Below, one piece after another: positions 25,996 through 38,030 of a stretch of DNA of 64,000 nt. Position numbers and translations under genes: made by a program. Each line of letters starts with the position of its first letter. Positions within the stretch are counted from its first letter, which is position 1. The stretch is taken from the NCBI GenBank assembly GCA_030147525.1, contig JASBVF010000003.1, forward strand, positions 1 to 64,000, read 5' to 3'. The stretch comes from Bacteroidota bacterium. GTDB taxonomy: Bacteria > Bacteroidota > Bacteroidia > Chitinophagales > Saprospiraceae. The notes under the pieces are model-generated. The model was not told where the DNA came from. It did not search any database and saw nothing but the letters and a program-made list of their open reading frames with translations.

Positions 25996-26910
25996 CTACC
26001 GTACAAAAGCGATGATCAGTGCAGCGATCGACAAGATGCCGGAGATGATCGGCAAGGTCTCCTGTATAGGGTCCCGGACGACGGCGACGGCTTCGGGAAT
26101 AGGTTCTACGTACACAATATCATTTTGCTGGAGGTAGAAGTAGGGCGACTGAAATACCTGTGGGGAGTGGATGTTGACGTACCCAAACTCCCGCTTGCCG
26201 TTTTGCTCCCTGATGACCATGATCTTTTCCCTGTTACTATATGGTGTAAGGTCCCCGGCCTGGCCGATGGCTTCCAGGATGGTCATGCGTTCGCCGGGTA
26301 CATTTATGGTGCGAGGGGCTCCGACCTCTCCGAGAACGGTAAAGCGGAAATTCAGAAACCTTATTATAATAGTGGGTTCGTTGAGGTAGGGTTTTAATTT
26401 ATCAGCGATAAGGGTTTTGGTCTCCTCGATGGTCCTCCCGGCTACGTCCAGGCTGCCGACGACCGGGATATCGATGTTGCCGTTGGGGTCCACAAGGTAA
26501 CCCTGCACGGTGGGGTTGTTTTGGCCGATCTGATTTATCATCTGCATACTCATCCCACCGAAGAGGTTGAAGGGTTCAGCAGTTTCCTGGTCGAGTGCTC
26601 TTACCAGGATAAACAGAACGTCGTCAGTCTGTATCTTGATCCGCACGGTATTGTTGATGTCGTGGTTCTGCAGGGGCACAAACTCCGTCTGGTTGCGGAA
26701 GTAGAGGAGTTGGGGGTGTTTGACGCAACCAGAAAACAAAAGCAGGAGGGTTAGGATGGAAAGTGGATAGTGGAAAGTGGATAGATTTTTAAATGATGAA
26801 CGATGAATGGTGAATGATGAATAGGCTGACCTGATGCTATTCCAAAGGTGAATGATAAACTTTTGGAAACGGTTGGGCTGTTTATAATTATTTTTGGATG
26901 GATGGATCAC
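25996..26910 (-). CDS. wza: Wza-type polysaccharide export lipoprotein
   Basis: A 304-residue outer-membrane export protein. The lipobox LLFSGC places the acylated Cys near residue 62. Residues about 85-190 form a Poly_export domain (IKIQTDDVLFILVRALDQ, GYLVDPNGNIDIPVVGSL). A SLBB domain follows (FTVLGEVGAPRTINVPGERM, ILEAIGQAGDLTPYSNREKI). The C-terminus is hydrophobic, with IISGILSIAALIIAFV as in the membrane-spanning helix of Wza proteins. It should form the outer-membrane exit channel with Wzc. The only start seen is GTG at 26910, giving an unusually long, basic N-region before the signal helix. Part of that region is encoded by degenerate TGAATGATGAA-type repeat DNA, so the true start is uncertain. 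Confidence 0.85.
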   Translation of the reverse strand: MIHPSKNNYKQPNRFQKFIIHLWNSIRSAYSSFTIHRSSFKNLSTFHYPLSILTLLLLFSGCVKHPQLLYFRNQTEFVPLQNHDINNTVRIKIQTDDVLFILVRALDQETAEPFNLFGGMSMQMINQIGQNNPTVQGYLVDPNGNIDIPVVGSLDVAGRTIEETKTLIADKLKPYLNEPTIIIRFLNFRFTVLGEVGAPRTINVPGERMTILEAIGQAGDLTPYSNREKIMVIREQNGKREFGYVNIHSPQVFQSPYFYLQQNDIVYVEPIPEAVAVVRDPIQETLPIISGILSIAALIIAFVR

Positions 26911-27017
26911 GTTGCTGGGCTTGAAATTTTAAAGTAGTGGAAGAGCGAACAGATTTTTAGTGAAATTTCTAAAAATTTACGGGTAATTTTTTGTGAAGAT
27001 CCCCTTGTTCAAAATTT

Positions 27018-27250
27018 TTTCGGGGGACTTTGAAAAAATTTTCCCGGAGTTTGAAATTTTTTTCGGGGAAAAAAATTTGAGTTTCCCGGAACTGAAAAAT
27101 TTTTCCGGGGAAAAAGGTTGAGTTTCCCGGAGTTGAAATTTTTTTCGGGGAAAAAATTTTTGAGTTACCCGGAGTTTGAAATTTTTTTCAGGAAAAAAAA
27201 TCTGAGTTTCCCGAAACTGAAACTTTTTTTGGGGATAAAAACGGGGAAAT
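27018..27250. repeat. Tandem array of about five 41-42 bp hairpin units
   Basis: Units read TTTCCCGGAGTTTGAAATTT then TTTTCGGGGAAAAAAATTTG AG, with drift between copies. Each unit is an imperfect palindrome (TTTCCCSGA against TCGGGGAAA) around an A/T core, so each can form a short hairpin. The array lies upstream of wza on its leader side. The regular A and T tracts also suggest bent DNA. There is no coding potential. Confidence 0.85.
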
Positions 27251-27328
27251 TTTCAGCGGGTGAAGAAAATTTTCAATTTTGATGTTTGGCCGTATGAAAT
27301 TGGCACACTTTTTTAGCTTATTTTAGAA

Positions 27329-27520
27329 GCGATTTGACAAATGATTTTGTTTTTTGGACACTGATTTTCACGGATTACACTGATTATTGGAATGCATTAT
27401 TCAGGAAAAAAATCAGGGTATTTTTCTGACACTGATTTACACGGATTACACTGATTTCTGGGTAGTCATTTTTCAGGAAAAAATCAGTGTAATTTGTGAA
27501 AATCAGTGTCGACAAATCGC
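27329..27520. repeat. MITE-like palindrome of the CACTGATTTTCACGGATT family
   Basis: A GACACTGATTTTCAC-type 29-bp repeat at 27357-27385 is matched in inverted orientation at 27482-27510 with two mismatches, and a further direct copy lies at 27428-27457. The outer ends GCGATTTG (27329-27336) and its complement (27513-27520) extend the inverted symmetry. The interior holds two TTTTTCAGGAAAAAAATCAG-like segments. It contains no gene. The same repeat family flanks the GxxExxY gene at 34.9 kb. Confidence 0.85.
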
Positions 27521-27833
27521 ACTACAAAAAGATACTTTCCGTAAAAAATTATTTGGATGTAACGTGACTAATCACGTTGTCTGAATTTTATCTCTGTAAC
27601 ATTTATCTGTTACAAATTTTCACACACCGACTTTGTATGACAGGCATCAGGTCTGCCTGTTTGATATTTTGCTGAACAATTGATGCCTTCGGCTGGCATG
27701 TTGCTTAGTGGTGTCAGGCTGCGCCGCAATTTGAATTTTTTACGGAATCCTATGTGGAACGGAGAAGGGACCGTGGTCGTAAGATCATCTGGTTCTGTCA
27801 ACCCCGGAAAACCTTTGAAGTTCCACTTTTTGA

Positions 27834-27886
27834 GGGTTTGAGGGGTTTGAGGGGTTTGAGGGGTTTGAGGGGTTTGAGGGGTTTGA
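27834..27886. repeat. 9-bp tandem repeat GGGGTTTGA x5-6
   Basis: Five perfect copies of GGGGTTTGA plus one 8-bp copy, followed by degenerate TTTGTTTGAAGGGG. The same word family recurs inside cysC (36914-37008) and just upstream of it (37268-37310). Confidence 0.93.
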
Positions 27887-28005
27887 TTTGTTTGAAGGGG
27901 GGGGGCTTATATTTTCCAGGAATTTGCTGTGTGTTTTTTGGATGCGAGTTATGGTATGTTTTCATAGCTCTAAGGCATCCGTGTGCTTCCCACTTGAAGC
28001 CCTAT

Positions 28006-28045
28006 TAACCATTAACCATTAATCATTATCAATTATTAACCTTTT
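28006..28045. repeat. Left TTAACCATTAA repeat block flanking the orphan gene
   Basis: Reads CTATTAACCATTAACCATTA followed by ATCATTATCAATTATTAACC. It is the inverse of the block that starts at 28695 on the other side of the gene. Confidence 0.85.
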
Positions 28046-28070
28046 TTTTAACGCTTAAATTTTAACGATT

Positions 28071-28694
28071 ATGCTATTAGAAATTATTTTTTCTGATTGG
28101 ACCAAAGCGGACGATGGCAACCTTTTCGCCAACACAAATGGCCTGGTGACAAAGACAAAAGGAAAGCCGGCTTATGCCAATGTACAAGATCAGGTTCTGG
28201 AGGTCGAAGCTGAAAATGCCCGGTTCAACGTGGCCAGCGACAATGCCAAAGATGGCAGTAAATCGGCTAAAACGACCCTGGAAAAGGTCAGGACTGAACT
28301 GCTTTTCAAACTTAAAATTCTTTTTATGATGATGGAGTTAAATGTCAATGAACCGGAAAGTTATTTCCTGAACGCCGGCTTGAGGGTTCGTGCGAAGCCG
28401 GTTCGGGAGCGTACTCCGCTGGAAAGACCCGAGCTGGATTACTTTGTAAGAGACGTATTGTCCGGCACTGTAAGGGGTAAAGTCAAAAATTTTCCAAAAG
28501 GTGTCACCCAACTGGCTGTCGAGTATTCTTATGATGGCGGAACAACCTGGCACAACGGCACTTATTCCGCCGGGAAAATTTTCAAGCTGGCCAACCTCAC
28601 CACGAAAGTCACCGTCACCGTTCGTGTTAAATTTCTGGGCACTCACGGCCGCCAAAGCGATTGGAGCGAGACGAGGGAGGTGTTTGTGCTGTGA
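28071..28694 (+). CDS. Hypothetical protein with C-terminal fibronectin-III-like segment
   Basis: A 207-residue protein I cannot place in a named family. The first 110 residues are charged with a helical MMMELNVNEPESYF segment and no signal peptide or membrane helix. Residues about 125-207 (VLSGTVRGKVKNFPKGVTQL, VEYSYDGGTTWHNGTY, VRVKFLGTHGRQSDWSE) have the strand pattern and Trp/Tyr placement of a fibronectin type III domain. It is the only plus-strand gene among minus-strand capsule genes, placed between two divergent halves of the locus, and inverted TTAACCATTAA repeats flank it on both sides. An inserted cassette is more likely than a capsule function. Confidence 0.7.
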   Translation: MLLEIIFSDWTKADDGNLFANTNGLVTKTKGKPAYANVQDQVLEVEAENARFNVASDNAKDGSKSAKTTLEKVRTELLFKLKILFMMMELNVNEPESYFLNAGLRVRAKPVRERTPLERPELDYFVRDVLSGTVRGKVKNFPKGVTQLAVEYSYDGGTTWHNGTYSAGKIFKLANLTTKVTVTVRVKFLGTHGRQSDWSETREVFVL

Positions 28695-28800
28695 TTAATG
28701 TTTAATTTATAATGGTTAATGGTTAATGGGGGGACTCACGGATTTGCCCGGAAATTAACCATTAATCATTATACATTAACCATTAAACATTAACCATTGA
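28695..28800. repeat. Right TTAACCATTAA repeat blocks flanking the orphan gene
   Basis: Directly after the stop codon comes ATAATGGTTAATGGTTAATG (about 28711-28730), inverted relative to 28006-28045. It is followed by ATTAACCATTAATCATTATA and further copies to 28797. The last copy runs into the end of the UDP-glucuronate epimerase gene, whose last codons (NV and stop) come from the repeat. Confidence 0.85.
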
Positions 28801-29859
28801 ATAATACTCCCTGTACCAGTCAATAAACGCATCGATCCCGTCCTGTATCTTAGTTTCCGGCTTATAGCCCAGGTTTTCGACCAGGTCTTCGACATTGGCG
28901 AAGGTGGCGGGTACGTCGCCGGGTTGGATGGGGAGCATTTCTTTTTTGGCTTCGATGCCGAGTTTCTTTTCGATGGCTTTGATGAAATCCATCAGCTTTA
29001 CGGGGTTGTTGTTGCCGATGTTATAGACTTTATACGGCGCTTTGGAGGTCGAGGGGTCGGGTTTTTCACCCTGCCAGTCCGGGTTTCCGGCTGGCGGATT
29101 GTCGATGACCCGGACGATGCCTTCCACGATATCATCCACGTAGGTGAAATCCCGCACCATGTTTCCGTGATTAAATACTTTGATTGGTTCGCCTTCCTGC
29201 ATGGCCTTGGTGAAAAGAAACAAGGCCATGTCCGGGCGGCCCCAGGGGCCGTAGACGGTGAAAAAGCGCAGTCCGGTGGTCGGCAAACCGTACAGGTGGC
29301 TGTAGGTATGCGCCATGAGTTCGTTGCTTTTTTTGCTGGCGGCATAGAGTGAAATCGGGTGATCCACGTTATCGGAAGTGGACAGTGGCATTTTTTCATT
29401 CAGGCCGTACACACTGGAGCTGCTGGCATAGGCCAGGTGTTTCACGCCATTGTGGCGGCAAGCTTCCAGGATATTGGCGAAACCAACGATATTGCTTTGG
29501 ATATAGGCATGCGGGTTGATAATGCTGTAGCGTACGCCTGCCTGTGCCGCCAGGTTGACGACTGCATCGAACTGGTGTTCTTTGAAAATGCGGTCGATGG
29601 TGTCCCGGTCTTCGAGGTTGGCTTTGATGAAACGATACTTTGGATGCTTTTCGCTTTGCACGTAGTGCGGTTCCCCTGAAGGGGATGACAAAACAGCAGC
29701 CCGGGATATACCAGCCTGTTTCAACCGGTCGTACTTGAGATTGACGTCGTAGTAGTCGTTGATGTTGTCGATTCCGACTACTTCATCACCCCTTTCTAAC
29801 AATCTGTTTGCGAGGTGAAATCCGATGAAGCCGGCGGTGCCGGTGATGAGAATTTTCAT
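28783..29859 (-). CDS. UDP-glucuronate 4-epimerase
   Basis: A 358-residue extended [23 protein letters not shown] is the NAD motif, [17 protein letters not shown] is a strong marker of UDP-glucuronate/CapI-type epimerases, [12 protein letters not shown] follows, and SSSSVYGLN with YAASKKSNE supplies the Ser/Tyr/Lys triad. [20 protein letters not shown] is also typical of the CapI group. It interconverts UDP-GlcA and UDP-GalA in the cytoplasm. No UDP-glucose dehydrogenase of Ugd type lies in the window, so UDP-GlcA must come from elsewhere. The last codons lie in a TTAACCATTAA repeat. Confidence 0.9.
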
Positions 29860-29885
29860 TGTTGTTCGTTGTTCGTTGTGGCACT

Positions 29886-30059
29886 TTGTTTCCCGTCAGG
29901 GATCTGTCCACGTTAAGGTTGCTGTTTGAAAACGGGGCGGCCCTTGTGACGTGGACGGGTCCCACCGAGGGATGAAAACGGGACGTGGACGGTTCCCGCC
30001 GAGGGATGAAAACGGGGCAGCCCTTGTGACGTGGACGGTTCCCTAAAGGGATACAAAGG
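29886..30059. repeat. GTGGACGG palindromic repeat array
   Basis: One inverted copy (TTTCCCGTCAGGGATCTGTC) followed by three to four direct copies of the unit GACGTGGACGGKTCCC-N4-GGGATRMAAA, spaced about 35-60 bp. It fills the gap between wlbA and the epimerase gene. Each unit contains a CCC-N4-GGG mini-hairpin. CTCTCAC microsatellite sequence follows up to 30112. Confidence 0.85.
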
Positions 30060-30113
30060 TGCTATGCATCTCTCACCCTCTCACTTCTCTCACTCTCTCA
30101 CCCTCTCACTTCT

Positions 30114-31073
30114 CTACTCAAAAGGATGTTTCGCCAACGGCAGCTTCGCCAGCTCATGCCAGTGACCGTGGAGGCCGACGGGGCGGGCATTCCGGATGTC
30201 GTGCACGATTTGCACGGCGGTGGCTGCATCGTCGAGGCCGAAACCCTGGCCGGACAGGATGGCTTCATAGCTCCGGGTGTGGAGGTCCGTGAAGCCGTCG
30301 CTGAATTCTATTTCTTCTCCATCCACGGTGACGGAACGATAAGTGCGGGCGCCTTTGGCCCGGATGTGTTCCGGAATCGTATCGTAATTGATGCTGAGGA
30401 ACCATTTTACCCGGGCTTTGTCTAGTTCCAGGTAGCCGGATGCCCGGTCGTGGGTGTGGACGTGGACCGTGTTTTCCCGGATATTGCCAAACAGCCAGGT
30501 CAGCATATCGTAAAAATGAACGCCGATGTTGGTGGCGATGCCGCCGGATTTGCTGAGGTCGCCTTTCCAGCTGGCGTAGTACCATTTGCCGCGGGAAGTC
30601 AGGTAGGTCAGGTTGACATCATAGACTTTTCCGCCGGGGTCGTTGTCGATTTTCTGCTTGAGTGCCAGCAGGGCAGGGTGGAGGCGAAGCTGCAGAATGG
30701 TGTATATTTTTCTGCGGGATTCTTTCTCCAATAGTTTTAAACCGTCGATGTTCCAGGGGTTCAGTACGAGCGGTTTTTCACAAATTACATCCGCACCAAT
30801 ACGCAGGCCGAAGCGGATATGTGCATCATGCAGGTAGTTCGGCGAACAAACCACCACATAATCGATATCAAGTCCTTCTCTTTTCAGCTTGTCCAGGTGA
30901 CGGTCGAAGCGTTCGAACTCGGTAAAAAAATCAGCCTGCGGAAAGTAGCTGTCGATTACGCCCACGGAGTCGTTTTTATCATAGGCTGCCACCAGGTTAT
31001 GACCTGTTGCCTGAATGGCTTTCATGTGACGGGGGGCAATGTAGCCGGCTGCTCCGATTAAGGCGAAATTCAC
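30114..31073 (-). CDS. wlbA: UDP-GlcNAcA 3-dehydrogenase WlbA/WbpB
   Basis: A 319-residue Gfo/Idh/MocA oxidoreductase from GTG 31073. FALIGAAGYIAPRHMKAIQ is the WlbA-type NAD motif; CSPNYLHDAHIRFGLRIGAD and the EKPLVL motif with Lys (about residue 100) are diagnostic; NIGVHFYDMLTWLFG holds the active-site His. It oxidises C3 of UDP-N-acetylglucosaminuronate, feeding the aminotransferase WlbC. Characterised homologues keep tightly bound NAD and reoxidise it with 2-oxoglutarate, giving 2-hydroxyglutarate, which makes the lhgO gene in this locus notable. Repeat arrays flank it on both sides. Confidence 0.92.
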   Translation of the reverse strand: MNFALIGAAGYIAPRHMKAIQATGHNLVAAYDKNDSVGVIDSYFPQADFFTEFERFDRHLDKLKREGLDIDYVVVCSPNYLHDAHIRFGLRIGADVICEKPLVLNPWNIDGLKLLEKESRRKIYTILQLRLHPALLALKQKIDNDPGGKVYDVNLTYLTSRGKWYYASWKGDLSKSGGIATNIGVHFYDMLTWLFGNIRENTVHVHTHDRASGYLELDKARVKWFLSINYDTIPEHIRAKGARTYRSVTVDGEEIEFSDGFTDLHTRSYEAILSGQGFGLDDAATAVQIVHDIRNARPVGLHGHWHELAKLPLAKHPFE

Positions 31074-31115
31074 GGTATTAATGATGAATGTTTAATGATG
31101 AATGATGGCTGCGGC

Positions 31116-31316
31116 TTTTGTGTCCCGTCAGGGATCTGTCCACGGCACGTTTGTAAAAGAGAAAACGGGACGGCACTTATGACTTGGACGGGTCCCTGAA
31201 GGGATACAAACGTGACTTGGACGGGTCCCACCGAGGGATGAAAAACCGTCGTGATGGAACGGTTCCCTGCGGGATGAAAACCCTTGAGACGGAACAGTTC
31301 CCTACGGGATGAAAAA
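31116..31316. repeat. GTGGACGG-family repeat array
   Basis: An inverted copy (GTCCCGTCAGGGATCTGTCC) is followed by four direct units at 34-36 bp spacing, each with a YCCC-N4-GGG mini-hairpin and ending in GATACAAACG or GATGAAAAC. The last unit ends 7 bp before the wlbB stop. The upstream part, 31074-31110, is TGAATGATGG-type word repeats. Confidence 0.85.
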
Positions 31317-31322
31317 ACCTCG

Positions 31323-31901
31323 TTATTCTGAAACGGGGGCTACGGTACCATTCGAAAGCTGGTACTTCATTCCCGACCCGGGACAAACAGCTTCTCCTTT
31401 CTCGTTAAAATGCAACCGCTCGCCGTGTTCGCTCATCCAACCTATTTGACGGGCGGGATTTCCAACCATCAAGGCGTAAGGTTTCACTTCTTTTGTCACC
31501 ACGGTCCCGGCGCCGATGAAGGCGTATGCGCCGATGTTATGTCCACAGACGATGGTGGCGTTGGCGCCGATGGTGGCGCCTTTTCCGACCGTGGTTTTCA
31601 TGTATTCTCCTTTTCGGTTGACGGCGCTGCGGGGGTTCATCACGTTGGTGAAAACCATGCTGGGGCCTAAAAACACATCGTCATCGCAGGTGACGCCTTC
31701 GTAGATGGAGACGTTGTTTTGTACTTTGACATTGTTTCCCAGTACCACGCCGTTCGCCACGAATACATTCTGTCCGAGGTTGCAGTTTTTACCGATTACG
31801 GCTCCGGACATGATATGGCTGAAGTGCCAGATTTTGCTGCCGTTGCCGATGGTGGCGCCGGGGTCGATGATGGCGGTGTCGTGAGAAAAGTAGTTAGCCA
31901 C
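31323..31901 (-). CDS. wlbB: UDP-2-acetamido-3-amino-glucuronate N-acetyltransferase WlbB/WbpD
   Basis: A 192-residue left-handed beta-helix acetyltransferase from GTG 31901. It shows repeated hexapeptides ([56 protein letters not shown]), then [17 protein letters not shown] and [20 protein letters not shown], the signature order of WbpD/WlbB. The C-terminal [19 protein letters not shown] is also characteristic. It acetylates the 3-amino group to yield UDP-GlcNAc(3NAc)A. It is separated from wlbA and wlbC by about 250-bp repeat-filled gaps. Confidence 0.93.
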
Positions 31902-32063
31902 GAATTTGCGCTAATTAAAACGAATTAGTCAGGTTGAAATATTCGTGTAAAATTCGAGTGAATTAGTGGGCGAAAAACATCTCGTTGTTCGATGGTCCCT
32001 GCCCGACTGACTCGGTCAGGCGGGTTTTTTGATTTGGGGACTTTCTTGCCAGGCTGCTGCGCA

Positions 32064-32153
32064 CCTTTGTTTCCCTTTAGGGATCCGTCCACGTCATAAG
32101 GGCTGCCAAACGGGAAAACGTGACGTGGACGGATCCCTAAAGGGACACAAAGG
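32064..32153. repeat. Long palindrome (33-bp arms) of the GTGGACGG family after wlbC
   Basis: The arms at 32064-32096 and 32121-32153 are complementary over 33 bp with one mismatch (CCTTTGTTTCCCTTTAGGGA against its partner) around a 24-bp loop. On the minus strand it begins about 7 bp after the wlbC stop codon. In RNA it would be a very stable stem, so it could act as an mRNA 3-prime stabiliser or attenuator. There is no T-run, so it is not a classical terminator. Confidence 0.9.
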
Positions 32154-32159
32154 GGGCGT

Positions 32160-33299
32160 TCACTCAAAAAATGAACACACTGATTCGCTGATAAACCCCA
32201 GCAACTCCCCGTCCATTTCTGTGTGGATAGGAAGGGAGATGACTTCCCGGCAAAGCTGCTCGGTGACGGGGAGCGTGAAGCCCGCCGGAACATATTTTTC
32301 AAATGCTTTCTGCTTGTACAGCGGCACGGGGTAGTAGATCATCGAGGGGATGCCTTTTTCGGACAAATAAGCCTGGAGGTCGTCCCGCCGGCTGTTTTTT
32401 ACCCGCAGGGTGTACTGGTGAAACACGTGGGTGGAATTGTGCTGCCGGGCAGGCGTTTGCAATTCCTGGATATTTTGGAATGCCTCGTCGTAAAAGGCGG
32501 CGGCACTTTGACGGGCGGCCGAGTATTCGTCGAGATGCCGAAGCTTTATATTTAAAATGGCGGCCTGCAGGGAATCCAGCCGGGAATTGACGCCGGTGAC
32601 GTCGTGGTAGTATTTCTTTTGCTGGCCGTGGTTGGCGATCATGCGGAGTTTGGCGGCGAGTGCGTCGTCGTTGGTCATCATAGCGCCGCCGTCGCCCATG
32701 CAGCCGAGGTTTTTAGAAGGAAAAAAGGAGGTGCAGCCGATATGGCCGATGGTTCCTGTTTTCTTAACGACTCCGTTTTTAAAGGTATAATCCGCTCCGA
32801 TGGCCTGGGCATTGTCTTCCACCACGAACAAGTTGTGCTGTTCGGCAAGGGCCATGATATCTTCCATGTCTGCGCTTTGTCCATATAAATGGACAGGCAC
32901 GATGGCTTTGGTGCGGGGGGTAATGGCTTTTTCGATGATGTCAGCCGTGATGTTAAAGGTGTCCGGATCGACATCGACCATCACCGGTTTCAAGTGTAAA
33001 AGTGCGATAACTTCCGCTGTGGCCACGTAGGTAAATGAAGGAACAATGACCTCGTCGCCGGGTTGAAGTCCGAGGGCCATGAAGGCTATTTGCAGAGCAT
33101 CCGTACCGTTGGCGCAGGGGATGACATGCCTCACACCCAGATACGTTTCCAGTGCAGCCTGAAAGGTCTTTACCTGCGGCCCCTGAATATACTGCGTGGA
33201 GGATAGGGTGTCCTGCACAGCCTTGTCGATCTCGTCTTTGATCCGCAGGTACTGGGAACCAAGGTCGACCATTTGGATATTTTTTTCTGTGGTGTTCAT
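32160..33299 (-). CDS. wlbC: UDP-2-acetamido-3-oxo-glucuronate aminotransferase WlbC/WbpE
   Basis: A 379-residue DegT-family PLP aminotransferase starting at ATG 33299. A longer frame to 33485 only translates repeat DNA and is rejected. IQMVDLGSQYLRIKDEID is the usual N-terminus; CANGTDALQIAFMAL binds PLP phosphate; VVEDNAQAIGADY contains the PLP Asp; SFFPSKNLGCMGDGGAM carries the Schiff-base Lys (about residue 185). It aminates the 3-keto sugar made by WlbA using glutamate, producing 2-oxoglutarate that WlbA can use. The downstream palindrome starts right after its stop. Confidence 0.92.
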   Translation of the reverse strand: MNTTEKNIQMVDLGSQYLRIKDEIDKAVQDTLSSTQYIQGPQVKTFQAALETYLGVRHVIPCANGTDALQIAFMALGLQPGDEVIVPSFTYVATAEVIALLHLKPVMVDVDPDTFNITADIIEKAITPRTKAIVPVHLYGQSADMEDIMALAEQHNLFVVEDNAQAIGADYTFKNGVVKKTGTIGHIGCTSFFPSKNLGCMGDGGAMMTNDDALAAKLRMIANHGQQKKYYHDVTGVNSRLDSLQAAILNIKLRHLDEYSAARQSAAAFYDEAFQNIQELQTPARQHNSTHVFHQYTLRVKNSRRDDLQAYLSEKGIPSMIYYPVPLYKQKAFEKYVPAGFTLPVTEQLCREVISLPIHTEMDGELLGFISESVCSFFE

Positions 33300-33316
33300 C
33301 TTTTTAATCGTCGGTG

Positions 33317-33578
33317 GCTTCCCATATGACGTGGACGGATCCCTAAAGGGAAACAAACGAGGCGTGGACAGTTCCCGCCAAGGGATGAAAACGAGGCTTC
33401 CCTTATGACGTGGACGGATCCCTAAAGGGAAACAAACGAGGTGTGGACAGTTCCCGCCAAGGGATGAAAACGAGGCTTCACTCATGACGTGGACGGATCC
33501 CTAAAGGGAAACAAACGTGGCCTGGACGCCTGCCTGGATGACCCGGTCTGACAGGGTTCCCGCCGAGGGATGAAAAGG
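33317..33578. repeat. GTGGACGG repeat array between wlbC and cysN
   Basis: About six units alternate between two variants, TGACGTGGACGGATCCCTAA-type and GTGGACAGTTCCCGCCAAGG-type, in one orientation, three and three, in a higher-order period of about 74 bp. This is the longest array in the window. It covers most of the 322-bp gap; the rest (33579-33621) is short low-complexity sequence, and no gene is seen. Confidence 0.88.
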
Positions 33579-33621
33579 GTAGCGGGAACGAACAATAAAC
33601 AACCAACAACGATCAACGAAA

Positions 33622-34872
33622 CTATCCAATAACCATCCCCGCCCCGACGGTTTCGTTGGTGCCTTCGTCGATCAGGATGACGCTGCCGGTGATGCGGTTT
33701 TTGCGGTAGGCATCAACGAACAGGGGTTTGGTGGTTCGTATGGTGATCCTGGCGATATCGTTCATGCCGACGGACTTGTCTTCGAGGTTACGGTGCAGGG
33801 TATTGACGTCCATTTTGTACTGGATGTCTTTTACCAGGCAGCGGACGTTTTGGGTCGTGTGCTGGATGGCATATTTACCCCGTTGTTGCAGGGGCTTATC
33901 GTTGAACCAGCAGACCATGAGGTCGAGGTCCTGGGTGACTTCGGGGTGGTTGTTTTCCCTCACGATCATGTCGCCCCGGCTCAGATCGAGGTCATCGTTC
34001 AACAGTAAGGTGACGGACATGGGGGGGAAGGCTTCTTCGATCTCGCCGTCAGCCGTATCGATCTTTGCGATGGTGGAGGTGAAACCCGAAGGCAGCAACA
34101 TTACCCGGTCACCTTTTTTCATCACACCCCCTGCCACTCGGCCTGCATACCCCCTGTAATCGTGGTAGTCGTCATTGTAAGGACGCACTACATATTGAAC
34201 AGGGAAACGGGTATCAATAAAATTATGATCGCTTCCGATGTGCACATTCTCCAGGTAATAAAGTAGGGTAGAGCCTTCATACCAGGGCATGTTGGCGGAG
34301 CGTTCCACCACATTGTCGCCCTTTAGGGCTGAGATGGGAATGAAGGAAATGTCGTGCACATCCAGTTTGGAAGCAAAACGTTCAAAGTCTTCTTTGATGG
34401 TTTCGTAAACTTCCTGCTTGTAATCCACCAGGTCCATTTTATTGATACAAATGACCAGGTGCGGAATCTGCAGCAGGGAGGAAATGATGGAATGACGCCG
34501 GGTCTGTTCGATCACACCATTGCGGGCGTCCACCAGAATAAGTGCCACATTGGCTGTCGAAGCGCCGGTAACCATATTTCTTGTATACTGAATATGACCG
34601 GGCGTATCGGCAATGATAAACTTTCTTCTGGGCGTCGCAAAGTAGCGGTAAGCCACGTCGATGGTGATGCCCTGTTCCCGTTCGGCTTTCAGGCCGTCGG
34701 TTAATAGTGCCAGGTTGACTCCTTCTTCTCCTCTCCGCTCTGAGGCGGTTTTTACGGCTTCGTACTGGTCTTCGAAAATGGATTTCGAATCGTACAACAG
34801 CCGTCCGATGAGGGTGCTTTTCCCGTCATCGACTGAGCCTGCGGTGGAGAATCGGAGTAACTCTGAAGTCAT
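33622..34872 (-). CDS. cysN: Sulfate adenylyltransferase subunit 1 (GTPase)
   Basis: A 416-residue translation-factor-like GTPase. G1 is GSVDDGKSTLIGRLL, G3 is DTPGHIQYTRNM, G4 is NKMD (about residue 130) and the switch region has REQGITIDVAYRYF. The beta-barrel domains follow to the end. With CysD it makes adenosine 5-prime-phosphosulfate from ATP and sulfate, GTP hydrolysis driving the reaction. No CysC domain is fused at its C-terminus (the fused CysN/NodQ forms are over 600 residues), which fits the separate cysC at 36.3 kb. A nuclease-fold gene cassette separates it from cysD. Confidence 0.95.
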   Translation of the reverse strand: MTSELLRFSTAGSVDDGKSTLIGRLLYDSKSIFEDQYEAVKTASERRGEEGVNLALLTDGLKAEREQGITIDVAYRYFATPRRKFIIADTPGHIQYTRNMVTGASTANVALILVDARNGVIEQTRRHSIISSLLQIPHLVICINKMDLVDYKQEVYETIKEDFERFASKLDVHDISFIPISALKGDNVVERSANMPWYEGSTLLYYLENVHIGSDHNFIDTRFPVQYVVRPYNDDYHDYRGYAGRVAGGVMKKGDRVMLLPSGFTSTIAKIDTADGEIEEAFPPMSVTLLLNDDLDLSRGDMIVRENNHPEVTQDLDLMVCWFNDKPLQQRGKYAIQHTTQNVRCLVKDIQYKMDVNTLHRNLEDKSVGMNDIARITIRTTKPLFVDAYRKNRITGSVILIDEGTNETVGAGMVIG

Positions 34873-34889
34873 TTATTGTTGCTTTTTTT

Positions 34890-34924
34890 GGACACTGATT
34901 GCACTGATTTCACGGATTTTATTA
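34890..34924. repeat. Left inverted repeat of the GxxExxY cassette
   Basis: Reads GGACACTGATTGCACTGATT then TCACGGATTTTATT. It corresponds, inverted and with mismatches, to 35330-35367 on the other side of the GxxExxY gene, and belongs to the repeat family seen at 27357-27510. It lies 18 bp upstream of the cysN ATG. Confidence 0.8.
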
Positions 34925-34943
34925 AGAAGAAGTGAAATCGTAT

Positions 34944-35318
34944 TTATCGGATAACCCGTTTATGTTGAAAAGATCGGGCTCCAAAGTTCAGGATGAGAGA
35001 AAGTTTGGATTGGGCAATTGAAATATAGTTTAAGGCCTGTTTTACATGATCTTCCACTATACCACTACATGCTTTTACTTCAAGGATAATTTGGTCAAAA
35101 ACTACAAAATCTGCATAAAAATCATGAGGTAGTATGATGTCTTTATAATGGACGTCATAGCGCTTTTCTCGTTCAAAGGGGATGTCGTGAAGATTGAATT
35201 CGTATTCCATGGCATCCTTGTAAACGATCTCTTTTAACCCAGGTCCTAAAATATTATGGATTTCCATACAGATTCCGATAACAGAATAAGTTTCCCTTTC
35301 AAATAATAAACTGCTCAT
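34944..35318 (-). CDS. GxxExxY-family protein (PD-(D/E)XK nuclease-like fold)
   Basis: A 124-residue protein with the family motif GPGLKEIVYKDAMEYEF (about residues 26-42, the Gly-x-x-Glu-x-x-Tyr core), an N-terminal SVIGICMEIHNILG helix, and the PD-(D/E)XK-like core YADFVVFDQIILEVKA (about 70-85), where Asp and the Glu-x-Lys are properly spaced. The family is widespread and often multicopy in Bacteroidota with no established biochemical role; a nuclease activity is inferred from fold motifs. It sits between cysD and cysN, bounded by inverted copies of a CACTGATT/CACGGATT repeat, so it looks like an inserted cassette rather than a sulfate-assimilation gene. Confidence 0.88.
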   Translation of the reverse strand: MSSLLFERETYSVIGICMEIHNILGPGLKEIVYKDAMEYEFNLHDIPFEREKRYDVHYKDIILPHDFYADFVVFDQIILEVKACSGIVEDHVKQALNYISIAQSKLSLILNFGARSFQHKRVIR

Positions 35319-35329
35319 TTTGAATTAAA

Positions 35330-35367
35330 TAAAAGGAAATCTGTGAAATCTGTGTACATCCGTGTCT
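35330..35367. repeat. Right inverted repeat of the GxxExxY cassette
   Basis: Reads AAAAGGAAATCTGTGAAATC then TGTGTACATCCGTGTCTA. Its complement (GACACGGATGTACACAGATT, TCACAGATTTCC) aligns with 34890-34924 over about 34 bp with several mismatches. It begins at the cysD stop codon (35366-35368), so the stop forms the cassette edge. Confidence 0.8.
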
Positions 35368-36268
35368 AGAAATACCCATCCTTCTTCCGATCCTCCATCG
35401 CTGTTTCGGAGCGCTTGTCGTCCGTGCGGCCGCCACGTTCGGTTTTGCGGCTGGCAGCGACTTCTTCGATGATTTCTTCGATGGAGGAGGCACTGGATTC
35501 CCAGACGCCGGTGCAAGTCACATCGCCGATGGTGCGGCAGCGGACCGTCATTTCAACAACTTTTTCTTCCGGGCGTTTGGGGATGAACTCGGAGTCGGCC
35601 AGGAGAATGCCGTCCCGGTGAAACACTTTTCGCTGATGGGCGAAATAGAGGCTTGGCAGCGGTACATTCTCTTCAGCGAGGTATTGCCACACGTCCAGTT
35701 CCGTCCAGTTGCTGATGGGAAAAATGCGGAAGTGCTCACCAAATTGTTTACGACCATTGAAAAGATTCCAGAGTTCCGGACGCTGATTTTTAGGGTCCCA
35801 TTGGCCAAATTCATCCCGGTGGCTGAAAAAGCGCTCTTTGGCACGGGCTTTTTCTTCATCCCTGCGGGCGCCGCCGATGGCAGCATCGAATTTTCCGTTT
35901 TCCAGTTCCTCCAGGAGTACGGCAGTCTGTAGAAAGTTTCGGCTGGCGTTGTATCCTTTTTCCTCCGTCACTTTGCCTTTATCAATGGCATCCTGGACAG
36001 ATCCCACCAACAATTTTGCATTCAAGTCTGCTACCCAATTGTCCCGGTATTCAATGGTCTCGGCAAAATTGTGCCCCGTATCGATGTGGAGCAAGGGAAA
36101 AGGGATTCGGGCCGGATAAAAGGCCTTTTTGGCTAAATAAGAAACTAATATGGAGTCTTTTCCGCCGGAAAACAGCAAAACAGGATTTTCAAACTGCGCT
36201 GCCACTTCCCGAAGGATGAAGATGGATTCTGCTTCAAGTTCTTTTAAATGGCTGAGTTGATAATTCAT
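35366..36268 (-). CDS. cysD: Sulfate adenylyltransferase subunit 2
   Basis: A 300-residue PP-loop ATP pyrophosphatase. LLFSGGKDSILVSYLAKKAF (about residue 31) is the PP-loop; HIDTGHNFAETIEYRD, GARRDEEKARAKER and GQWDPKNQRPELW are the conserved CysD blocks; it ends in the typical RKKDGYF. It adenylylates sulfate in complex with CysN. Length is normal and the C-terminus complete, so the adjacent cassette did not damage it. Located inside a polysaccharide locus without reduction genes, it probably serves polymer sulfation. Confidence 0.95.
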   Translation of the reverse strand: MNYQLSHLKELEAESIFILREVAAQFENPVLLFSGGKDSILVSYLAKKAFYPARIPFPLLHIDTGHNFAETIEYRDNWVADLNAKLLVGSVQDAIDKGKVTEEKGYNASRNFLQTAVLLEELENGKFDAAIGGARRDEEKARAKERFFSHRDEFGQWDPKNQRPELWNLFNGRKQFGEHFRIFPISNWTELDVWQYLAEENVPLPSLYFAHQRKVFHRDGILLADSEFIPKRPEEKVVEMTVRCRTIGDVTCTGVWESSASSIEEIIEEVAASRKTERGGRTDDKRSETAMEDRKKDGYF

Positions 36269-36318
36269 TCTTATAGTAGGCCTGTAGGCAGTAGGCGAGT
36301 AAGCCTGTAAAAGACTCG

Positions 36319-37266
36319 CTAACTGCGAATGTGTGGTTGCAGGTAGTTAAAAAGTTTTTCTACGGATGTTTCAAGGGGTTCTTCAGCCGTATTCAATTCC
36401 AGGGCCGGATGTTCCGGCGCTTCGTAGGGAGAATCGATGCCGGTGAATTCCTTTATTTCTCCTTTCCGGGCTTTTTGATACAGCCCTTTTACGTCACGCT
36501 CTTCGCAAACTTCCAACGGGGCGTTGACGTATACTTCTATAAAATCTTCTGCTCCAATGATATCTTTGGCGTATTGCCGTATCTCCCGGGTCGGACTGAT
36601 AAAGGTGCAAATGGTAACAACGCCGCTGTGGCAATACAATTTGGCGACTTCGGCAATCCGGCGGATATTTTCCTGACGATCTTCCAGGCTGAATCCAAGA
36701 TTGGAATTGATGCCGCTTCTGATATTATCTCCATCCAGCATTTGGGCGAAGTAGCCGTTTTCCATCAGTTTGCGTTCGAGCGCATGCCCGATGGTGCTTT
36801 TACCGGAACCCGAAAGGCCGGTAAGCCAGATGACCTTGCTTTTTTGCCGGAGGAATTGTTGCCGTTCATCCCGGCTGAGCATTTGGTCGAAGGTGGGGTG
36901 GATGTGGGTGGGTGTTTGTGGGGTTTGATTTGTTTGAAGGGTTTGAATGGTTTGATGGGTTTGAGGAGTTTGATTTGTTTGATGGGTTTGATGGGTTTGA
37001 CGGGGTTTGCCCCATTTTACACGCTGCCAGATGCGTTCGTGGAAGTAGTAGAGGAATATTTTGGTGAAAACTTCGATACCTCCGATGGATAAGGCTTTCA
37101 GAGGACTCCCGGTAACCAGCCATGCGATGGCGGTTGTGTCCAAAGTTCCCAATACCCGCCACGAAACACCTTTTGCTATACTTCTGGAATGAGATTCTTT
37201 CAAGGCAATGAGAGAATGTGGGAATTTAGAATGAGAGAATGAAAGGATGATCAAAACTTTGGGCAC
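36319..37266 (-). CDS. cysC: DUF2061-APS kinase fusion with repeat-encoded linker
   Basis: A 315-residue fusion. Residues about 28-85 (SIAKGVSWRVLGTLDTTAIAW, IGGIEVFTKIFLYYFHERIW) form a DUF2061 membrane domain. A 40-residue linker of QTHQTNQT-like triplets follows (about 87-125). Residues 135-315 are APS kinase: P-loop GLSGSGKSTIGHAL, LDGDNIRSGINSNLGF, CTFISPTREIR and GLYQKARKGEIKEFTG. It phosphorylates APS to PAPS, the sulfuryl donor. The start shown is GTG at 37266; its first 25 residues are partly encoded by GAGAATG-type repeat DNA, so TTG at 37203, just before KESHSRS, may be the real start. Confidence 0.88.
   Translation of the reverse strand: MPKVLIILSFSHSKFPHSLIALKESHSRSIAKGVSWRVLGTLDTTAIAWLVTGSPLKALSIGGIEVFTKIFLYYFHERIWQRVKWGKPRQTHQTHQTNQTPQTHQTIQTLQTNQTPQTPTHIHPTFDQMLSRDERQQFLRQKSKVIWLTGLSGSGKSTIGHALERKLMENGYFAQMLDGDNIRSGINSNLGFSLEDRQENIRRIAEVAKLYCHSGVVTICTFISPTREIRQYAKDIIGAEDFIEVYVNAPLEVCEERDVKGLYQKARKGEIKEFTGIDSPYEAPEHPALELNTAEEPLETSVEKLFNYLQPHIRS
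36914..37008. repeat. Degenerate 9-bp GGGTTTGAT repeats coding the CysC linker
   Basis: About ten degenerate units of GGGTTTGAT/TGTTTGAAG encode Q-T-H/N/P triplets on the minus strand. The period is a multiple of three, so length changes keep CysC in frame. The same word appears outside genes at 27834-27886 and at 37268-37310. Confidence 0.88.
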
Positions 37267-37481
37267 GAATCAAACCCCTCAAACAATTCAAACTCATCAA
37301 ACCACTCTGAATGCAAACAAGGCTTCGCCGCTCATAGGTCGCAAGGCCCCTATCAGAAATAAAAAATACCCGCAAAAAGCCCGGCCCGAAGGCTGGACTG
37401 AAAAATGAAATGCCATATCTGGCTATAGGCCTTTGGTTCGTATGGCCTTTGGCTACCGGCTTTTATTCACCGGTCACCGTA

Positions 37482-38030
37482 TTATTCAATTTTCTTCAAC
37501 AGCGTGGCATCGACGCTCATTTTCAGCGTGTAGCCGACTGTTTCCAATTCTACCAACATGTGTTTTTTGCCTTGTTTTTCCACCAATCGGCCACGGAGGC
37601 CGGTGAGTTTTCCGCCGACCACTTCAACAGCGTCTCCTTCCTGAAAACGGCCGGGTTCGGCTTCTACGTCGATCCCTTCACCCACGACCCGCCGGAGGAT
37701 ATTGATCTCCTCATCCGGTATGGACAACAGGTTTCTGGCAAACCGCAAAAACTTGACGACATTTTCCGTTTCCAGTACCCTTACATAATCGTCGTTGGTA
37801 ATCCTGACAAAAATGTAACAGCTGATCAGCGGGATGTCGTGCCGTTTTATCTTCCGGGTATATTGCCGGACGACCGTTTGCAAAGGCAAATAATTTTCAA
37901 TGTTCTTACTATCCAAAAGCCGCTTTACGACTTTTTCACTTTTATACCTGGTGTAAACTGCAAACCAGCGTGGTTCAGTGGGATGTAAATGATTTTCGTA
38001 ATCCTTCTCACTTTTTTGCAGTCCATTCAT
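37482..38030 (-). CDS. UpxY/RfaH-type NusG-like antiterminator
   Basis: A 182-residue NusG paralogue. The NGN domain (about 20-118) starts PRWFAVYTRYKSEKVVKRLL and has NYLPLQTVVRQYTRKIKRHD and PLISCYIFVRI. The C-terminal KOW region (about 128-165) has GDAVEVVGGKLTGLRGRLVE. Proteins of this type in Bacteroidota sit at the start of capsule operons and let RNA polymerase read through the long operon. Its position, upstream of cysC and more than 35 kb of same-strand polysaccharide genes, fits that role. Short ATTCTCTC repeats lie just upstream (38088-38106). Its recruitment site could not be identified. Confidence 0.9.
   Translation of the reverse strand: MNGLQKSEKDYENHLHPTEPRWFAVYTRYKSEKVVKRLLDSKNIENYLPLQTVVRQYTRKIKRHDIPLISCYIFVRITNDDYVRVLETENVVKFLRFARNLLSIPDEEINILRRVVGEGIDVEAEPGRFQEGDAVEVVGGKLTGLRGRLVEKQGKKHMLVELETVGYTLKMSVDATLLKKIE

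Follow-up and report, generated by a model that had tools for sequence, protein, structure and literature searches.

A GxxExxY gene lies between cysD and cysN in the window analyzed, a stretch of 64,000 nt. All three genes are encoded on the minus strand: cysN at 33622–34872, the GxxExxY gene at 34944–35318 (a 375-bp ORF encoding 124 aa), and cysD at 35366–36268. The left arm of an inverted repeat (34885–34919, TTTTTGGACACTGATTGCACTGATTTCACGGATTT), composed of the words CACTGATT and CACGGATT, was located on the 3' side of the GxxExxY gene, and its inverted copy, the right arm (35337–35372), on the 5' side. Arm, gene and arm together form a foldback element of 488 nt (34885–35372); local alignment of TTTCTAGACACGGATGTACACAGATTTCACAGATTT with the reverse complement of TTTTTGGACACTGATTGCACTGATTTCACGGATTT gave a score of 17.0. 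Both host genes are intact, as cysD and cysN matched their families over their length. These results bear out an earlier note on this DNA, which had described a 124-residue GxxExxY gene between intact cysD and cysN and had placed its flanking inverted repeats at 34890–34924 and 35330–35367. That note also had the right repeat begin at the cysD stop codon, and the right arm indeed overlaps this codon (35366–35368); for its spacing of 18 bp between the left repeat and the cysN ATG (34870–34872), 12 nt were measured to the left arm, or 17 nt if measured to GGACACTG.

A gene-free palindrome of the same words was found at 27351–27516, inside the span 27329–27520 for which a solo copy had been claimed. 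Its best arms (27351–27388 and 27479–27516) are 87% complementary, and it contains a nested copy (27428–27510) with arms at 27428–27457 and 27481–27510. The exact pattern CACKGATTNNCACKGATT matched twice in the genome of the window (G000), both times within this solo copy, and its reversed control gave 0 matches. Further repeats were observed in the window: an interspersed family of 50–100 nt (GACGTGGACGGATCCCTAAAGGGAAACAAACG and variants) in both orientations, between genes and at gene ends, at 29885–33585; five overlapping copies of TTTCCCGGAGTTTGAAATTTTTTTCGGGG... with a spacing of about 42 nt at 26998–27240; and inverted 9-nt arrays of the TTTGAGGGG type at 36894–36995 and 37269–37303, the former lying in an ORF (36319–37266, adenylylsulfate-kinase-like by eye) in which it encodes a QTHQTNQTPQT linker.

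The GxxExxY protein of the window matched TIGR04256 with 124.9 bits (curated cut-off 35, E 1.9e-36) and PF13366 PDDEXK_3 with 115 bits (curated cut-off 22, E 3.1e-33). It carries the motifs G25xG27, E30, Y33, D70, E80xK82 and Q94xxxY98. The best Foldseek match of its AlphaFold2 model (pLDDT 95) was SSO0001 (4ic1, E 7.3e-4), which we take to be Cas4, followed by weaker matches to lambda exonuclease, LHK-Exo, MGME1 and RecE (E 0.007–0.08); a search of PDB chains by sequence returned none at E≤1. Of 223 members analyzed for residue conservation, 8 had internal stops and were set aside; E30, E80 and K82 were found in all of the other 215, D70 in 214, Q94 in 211, and Y98 in 210. Judged from the model, the fold is of the RecB/Cas4-type PD-(D/E)XK, and the protein shares with Cas4, RecB and lambda exonuclease both this fold and the E-D-ExK-QxxxY residues; it differs from them as a minimal form of 124 aa with no cysteine among its invariant or nearly invariant columns. 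GxxExxY is under purifying selection, with a median dN/dS of 0.09 over 44 pairs (dS 0.05–1.2, pairs not independent) at the hemW|cyclase site of Flavobacterium described below. Fold and residues thus point to a conserved nuclease that is probably active. Annotation as a defence system was rejected, PADLOC and PHROGs giving weak matches (E 0.026 and 0.018, respectively). We know of no established function for the GxxExxY family.

Taken singly, the repeat of the window is significant near the 1% level (p near 0.01), its score of 17.0 being the 99th percentile of the cross-locus null, of which 1.4% reached 16; the case therefore rests on the family and not on the window copy. Arms were sought by aligning the 300 nt upstream of each gene to the reverse-complemented 300 nt that follow it, at a cut-off score of at least 16. 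The same-family set comprised 113 loci from the genome of the window and from genomes of the same family, of which 110 were used (L017, L090 and L102, with less than 150 nt on one side, were excluded), and its null consisted of 3,300 cross-locus pairs. Inverted repeats reached the cut-off at 68/110 of these loci against 1.4% of the null. The corresponding values were 38/78 against 6.5% for named loci (the best 80 of at least 577 from a collection scan, with L163 and L217 too short), 17/28 against 5.8% for further loci of the phylum, and 21/29 for Flavobacterium (29 of 30 loci used), where the null is high (19%) because members of the genus share arms. All four GxxExxY genes of genome G000 have flanking inverted repeats; the three outside the window scored 31, 36.5 and 50.5.

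The same method applied to other genes found no arms even at a score of 14: 0/30 for ParE toxin loci, 0/18 for small GIY-YIG loci of the family (22 fetched, 4 dropped as short), and 0/8 for UvrC loci. GIY-YIG genes, considered as a third cargo family, were accordingly rejected. An origin of the repeats as chance palindromes or ordinary terminators beside small genes would suit the near-1% level of the window copy, but the ParE and GIY-YIG controls, the cross-locus nulls and the correlation between words and protein clades (see below) refute it for the family as a whole, and we consider it exceedingly improbable. That the association between GxxExxY cassettes and repeats is real is near certain.

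GxxExxY genes lacking the repeat, which the earlier note had held to speak against its proposal, do occur in part: 42/110 same-family and 40/78 named loci fall under the cut-off, and at least one of them (L095) has weak arms by eye. In L095 (G072:C33), an in-frame fusion joins the GxxExxY cassette to the 3' end of a gene that is acetyltransferase-like and resembles window 31323–31901; a gene similar to window 30114–31073 comes next (by eye). Presence of GxxExxY is patchy (61/100 genomes of the family, 121/150 of Flavobacterium), and degraded copies occur too; in the phylum, the genes were found in 152/296 sampled genomes, in 149 of them above the family cut-off. Armed loci outside Bacteroidota were assigned to Planctomycetota (L205), Anaerolineae (L175), a cyanobacterium (L211), Opitutaceae (L191) and Methanosarcinales (L220 and L226), all from metagenome assemblies, so that mis-binning is possible; the Acidobacteria locus L162 had no arms.

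Each arm is built from a short word that recurs at intervals of about 9 nt: among arms of at least 24 nt, the best period was 8–10 in 86/114. We compared words over 130 loci scoring at least 14, out of the 113 and 80 loci of the two sets, and found that four protein clusters differ in their word sets. The cluster LGPGLLES (88 loci) has mostly CRCAGAG, CRCAAAG, ACATAG and ACAAAAG; GNGFQEVIYQRA (23 loci) has TGTCTGAAT-AGGATT; LGYGFLEKVY (15 loci) has mostly ACGGATT; and EIVYKDALEYEF, the cluster of the window itself (4 loci), has CACGGATT and CACGAAT. Arm similarity correlated with protein identity (Mantel Spearman 0.384; 0/500 permutations were as high, the largest being 0.10). Three viral GxxExxY loci were found, all with the word expected for their clade (by eye, with no null). 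In hand-made patterns, the words face inward at 104 loci and outward at 12, with 14 ties and a ratio of 2:2 in the four-locus cluster of the window; as they mostly face inward, the gene lies in the loop. Word direction was dropped as evidence on the direction of the gene, since a palindrome reads identically for either direction.

The match between clade and word may come partly from joint inheritance of a linked cassette. In protein pairs 45–65% identical, the first 30 nt of the arms scored at least 10 in 5–10% of pairs, compared with 0.2–0.3% for the 30 nt just outside the arms and 0.4–1.0% for the 30 nt just inside. Linkage alone is therefore insufficient; constraint on the arms or their concerted change would explain the difference. 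In pairs less than 45% identical, the arms showed no higher similarity than the adjacent sequence.

Gene-free copies were surveyed in Flavobacterium with the pattern AACCGCAARGNNCGCAAAG, which has 798 exact copies in 150 genomes, with up to 64 per genome; the reversed control gave 0 in every genome. Thirty sites were fetched and 29 viewed, one being too short. Seven of the 29 are gene-free palindromes of 39–131 nt scoring at least 15, the clearest being L388 (96 nt) and L397 (101 nt), and four (L389, L398, L400 and L401) are GxxExxY cassettes with arms like those of the gene-free palindromes. For the other 18, no second arm reached a score of 15, so that single or decayed arms are the form met most often and outnumber hairpins. 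The pattern was present in 78/121 genomes with GxxExxY (64%) versus 3/29 without it (10%; Fisher p 1.2e-7, kinship ignored), and among genomes smaller than 4.5 Mb in 47/88 versus 3/29. Copy number of the pattern followed the number of GxxExxY genes, with a partial Spearman of 0.40 (genome size removed, kinship ignored).

At the genome scale, an exact-word array scan gave 4 matches in 400 kb of G000 and 0 in G062; it missed the window cassette and was therefore replaced by an alignment census. At a score of 19, the census of 400 kb of contig 19 of G000 found 16 inverted repeats, two of them with cassette words by eye (27351–27516 and 201739–201815); in 400 kb of G062, a genome with 6 GxxExxY genes, it found 8 inverted repeats scoring at least 19, none with cassette words by eye. 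Cassettes that score too low for this census include those of the window (17.0) and of L100 in G062 (15.0). A local repeat expansion was observed at G053:C119:32804-33149, where four tandem copies of TGTCTGAATCAGGATT, one every 110 nt, adjoin the GxxExxY gene L107.

The main rival explanation is that the repeats are moved by another enzyme, such as a RAYT-type Y1 transposase, an IS transposase or the recombination machinery, with GxxExxY as a passenger or accessory in the loop. REPIN hairpins are attributed to RAYT (PMC3116915), the pattern occurs in three of the 29 Flavobacterium genomes where GxxExxY was not found, and unrelated four-helix-bundle genes share the arm-gene-arm layout (see below). 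Such a mover accords poorly, however, with arm words that follow the GxxExxY clade, with purifying selection and near-invariant catalytic residues in GxxExxY, and with the 64% versus 10% distribution of the pattern; we regard it as unlikely.

Orthologous sites were compared for gain and loss. The cysD|cysN junction was readable in 9 genomes of the genus, that of the window included. GxxExxY with arms was present in G000 and G107 (arms scoring 17.0), and remnants were seen in G061. The insert-free junctions that the earlier note had proposed to look for in close relatives were found in the same genus, with short gaps of 5 nt in G102 and 47 nt in G109. Four genomes of the genus carry, on reading the gaps, what is presumably a nucleotidyltransferase/HEPN-like pair.

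A second site, hemW|cyclase, was read in 70 Flavobacterium genomes, out of 136 with the cyclase, and its states were assigned by word counts and length. GxxExxY cassettes were found in 20/70 (arms of at least 16 in 17 of these, and short ORFs in two), gene-free word arrays in 21/70 (13 of CRCAAAG words and 8 of CGGAT words), gaps of 10–44 nt in 13/70 (one, L463, retaining part of an arm), another repeat element in 5/70, and other contents in 11/70; because the first 30 loci were the nearest relatives of a single gene-bearing copy, these proportions are not those of a random sample. Split in the middle, the gene-free arrays had palindrome scores of 5–13.5, and many are therefore decayed or one-armed. 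The other repeat element (L451, L452, L457, L518 and L536) is an unrelated inverted repeat (TTTCAGCATCT...AGATGCTGAAA), some copies of which hold a GIY-YIG-like ORF by eye.

On a hemW tree of 66 sequences (4 were too short), in which 28/63 branches are weak, GxxExxY presence changed at least 13 times, at least 7 of these changes being forced by well-supported branches, and all states together required 31 changes. The GxxExxY label was more clustered than expected by chance (shuffled mean 16.7, with 11/500 shuffles as low). Reading occupied and empty sites recovered neither a clean target-site duplication nor an exact pre-insertion boundary, the sites being too diverged. The cassettes do have inverted arms, as classical IS and MITE elements do; orthologous empty and occupied sites, as known for homing-type genes, exist at both cysD|cysN and hemW|cyclase. 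Most likely, the window copy is itself an insertion, between cysD and cysN, of the mobile element proposed below.

The only near-identical pair of loci within one genome was L143 and L144 (two sites in G018), which share about 1 kb, 97% identical, holding a GxxExxY cassette that adjoins the apparent end of a gene we take to encode an Rpn-type nuclease. This pair was rejected as proof of transposition, since the shared homology runs past the arms; being larger than the cassette, it makes gene conversion possible. Such homology outside the cassette would also be expected if GxxExxY were a host-useful structure-specific nuclease, engaged in surveillance of cruciforms or repeats, that sits beside repeats under its control and whose cassettes spread via homologous recombination between repeats. 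The Cas4/RecB-like fold, purifying selection and tandem repeat copies near a GxxExxY gene agree with this host role, but a mobile element better accounts for the patchy presence, the degraded copies and the turnover at one site, and we judge the host role very unlikely.

The arm-gene-arm layout was also found around genes of the S23/IVS four-helix-bundle family TIGR02436, with arms of at least 16 at 19/29 loci (L325 was short) against 1.8% of the null. Genome G000 has 9 TIGR02436 matches, and all four loci fetched have arms. The arm words of this family have a period of 7 nt, versus 9 in GxxExxY arms. Two TIGR02436 genes occupy the cysD|cysN junction in the relatives G009 and G010. A similar layout with a different protein was observed in the window, where inverted arrays of the 7-nt unit ATTAACC (28000–28040 and 28691–28789) surround a 207-aa ORF (28071–28694, plus strand) that had no Pfam match over the cut-off.

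IVS elements with an S23 protein and complementary ends are known from rRNA, and the Coxiella IVS is excised by RNase III (PMC4990558). The GxxExxY element could be of this type and act at the RNA level, its arms pairing in the transcript, where they would be substrates of RNase III or serve as terminators, making intergenic insertions tolerable, and its protein being RNA-level or neutral. The matching layout of the TIGR02436 loci agrees with such a role. Nevertheless, G-U mismatches in the arms did not exceed A-C mismatches either in GxxExxY loci (173:180) or in four-helix-bundle loci (28:23), and therefore gave no sign of selection for RNA pairing; no Rfam family reached its gathering score in window 26500–37500; and the GxxExxY fold is nearest to DNA nucleases. 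We find action at the RNA level rather improbable.

The arm-gene-arm layout, the clade-word match, arms more similar to one another than the adjacent sequence, gene-free copies, site turnover, purifying selection and near-invariant catalytic residues all support a mobile foldback element, and we slightly favour, as the full mechanism, a REPIN/RAYT-like one with the nuclease as partner enzyme. The element would consist of two inward-facing word-array arms with a period of about 9 nt, the loop between them holding the GxxExxY gene; arrays and hairpins that lack the gene would be its non-autonomous or decayed form. We infer that the Cas4/RecB-like nuclease may recognize, at the DNA level, the word array belonging to its own clade, perhaps in the form of extruded or single-stranded hairpins, and may process it. 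Such processing would spread the nuclease's own cassette and, in trans, gene-free copies, as proposed for RAYT and REPINs. The earlier note had proposed a repeat-bounded unit with gene-free copies and a link between GxxExxY and a repeat family, and in this it was well founded; its interpretation as a whole is partly supported.

Several known systems resemble the element. REPINs and RAYT (PMC3116915) are likewise systems of short inverted repeats outside genes, with copies that lack a gene, in which a small enzyme gene lies near repeats of its own type and the repeat type matches the enzyme type. In contrast to RAYT, a tyrosine (Y1) transposase, the GxxExxY enzyme is a RecB/Cas4-like PD-(D/E)XK nuclease by its predicted fold, and its arms are arrays of short words about 9 nt apart with the gene in the loop. 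IVS/S23 elements have in common with it a small gene between complementary ends, a patchy distribution and an insertion tolerated by the host locus; however, the GxxExxY protein is not a four-helix bundle, the window copy lies between cysD and cysN rather than in rRNA, and the word period and the lack of a G-U signature of RNA pairing set it apart. Homing endonuclease genes are similar in being free-standing small nuclease genes, present or absent at orthologous sites with their neighbours kept, whereas GxxExxY lies between inverted arms and has gene-free counterparts, and small GIY-YIG genes of the same family genomes are armless. Compared with eukaryotic foldback transposons such as Galileo, GxxExxY elements have an unrelated enzyme and prokaryotic hosts and are very short. 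In the open-licence literature searched, a link between GxxExxY and repeats was not found; the name GxxExxY appears there in passing, once each in two papers, and the accession PF13366 in one more.

We tentatively propose that GxxExxY proteins may be the mobilizing enzymes of an unrecognized prokaryotic foldback class: minimal Cas4-like nucleases that would read arrays of clade-specific words spaced by roughly one helical turn, spreading gene-free copies as well as their own cassette. As part of the same tentative proposal, the S23 four-helix-bundle elements with their 7-nt words may form a sister class to the GxxExxY elements outside rRNA, which suggests that S23/IVS-type elements may be part of a broader group that inserts between protein genes in an arm-gene-arm arrangement. 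If true, the proposal would explain the dispersed words CRCAGAG, CRCAAAG, ACGGATT, TGTCTGAAT-AGGATT and ACATAG in assemblies from Bacteroidota to Planctomycetota, Chloroflexota, Cyanobacteria and Methanosarcinales. Short repeats of one class now have a probable partner, and since dispersed repeats are linked to GxxExxY, with clade-matched words and an orthologous site in short-gap, gene-free and gene-bearing states, the function becomes directly testable. Similar pairings of nuclease type and repeat word across several bacterial phyla and in some archaeal assemblies suggest an overlooked kind of mobile DNA.
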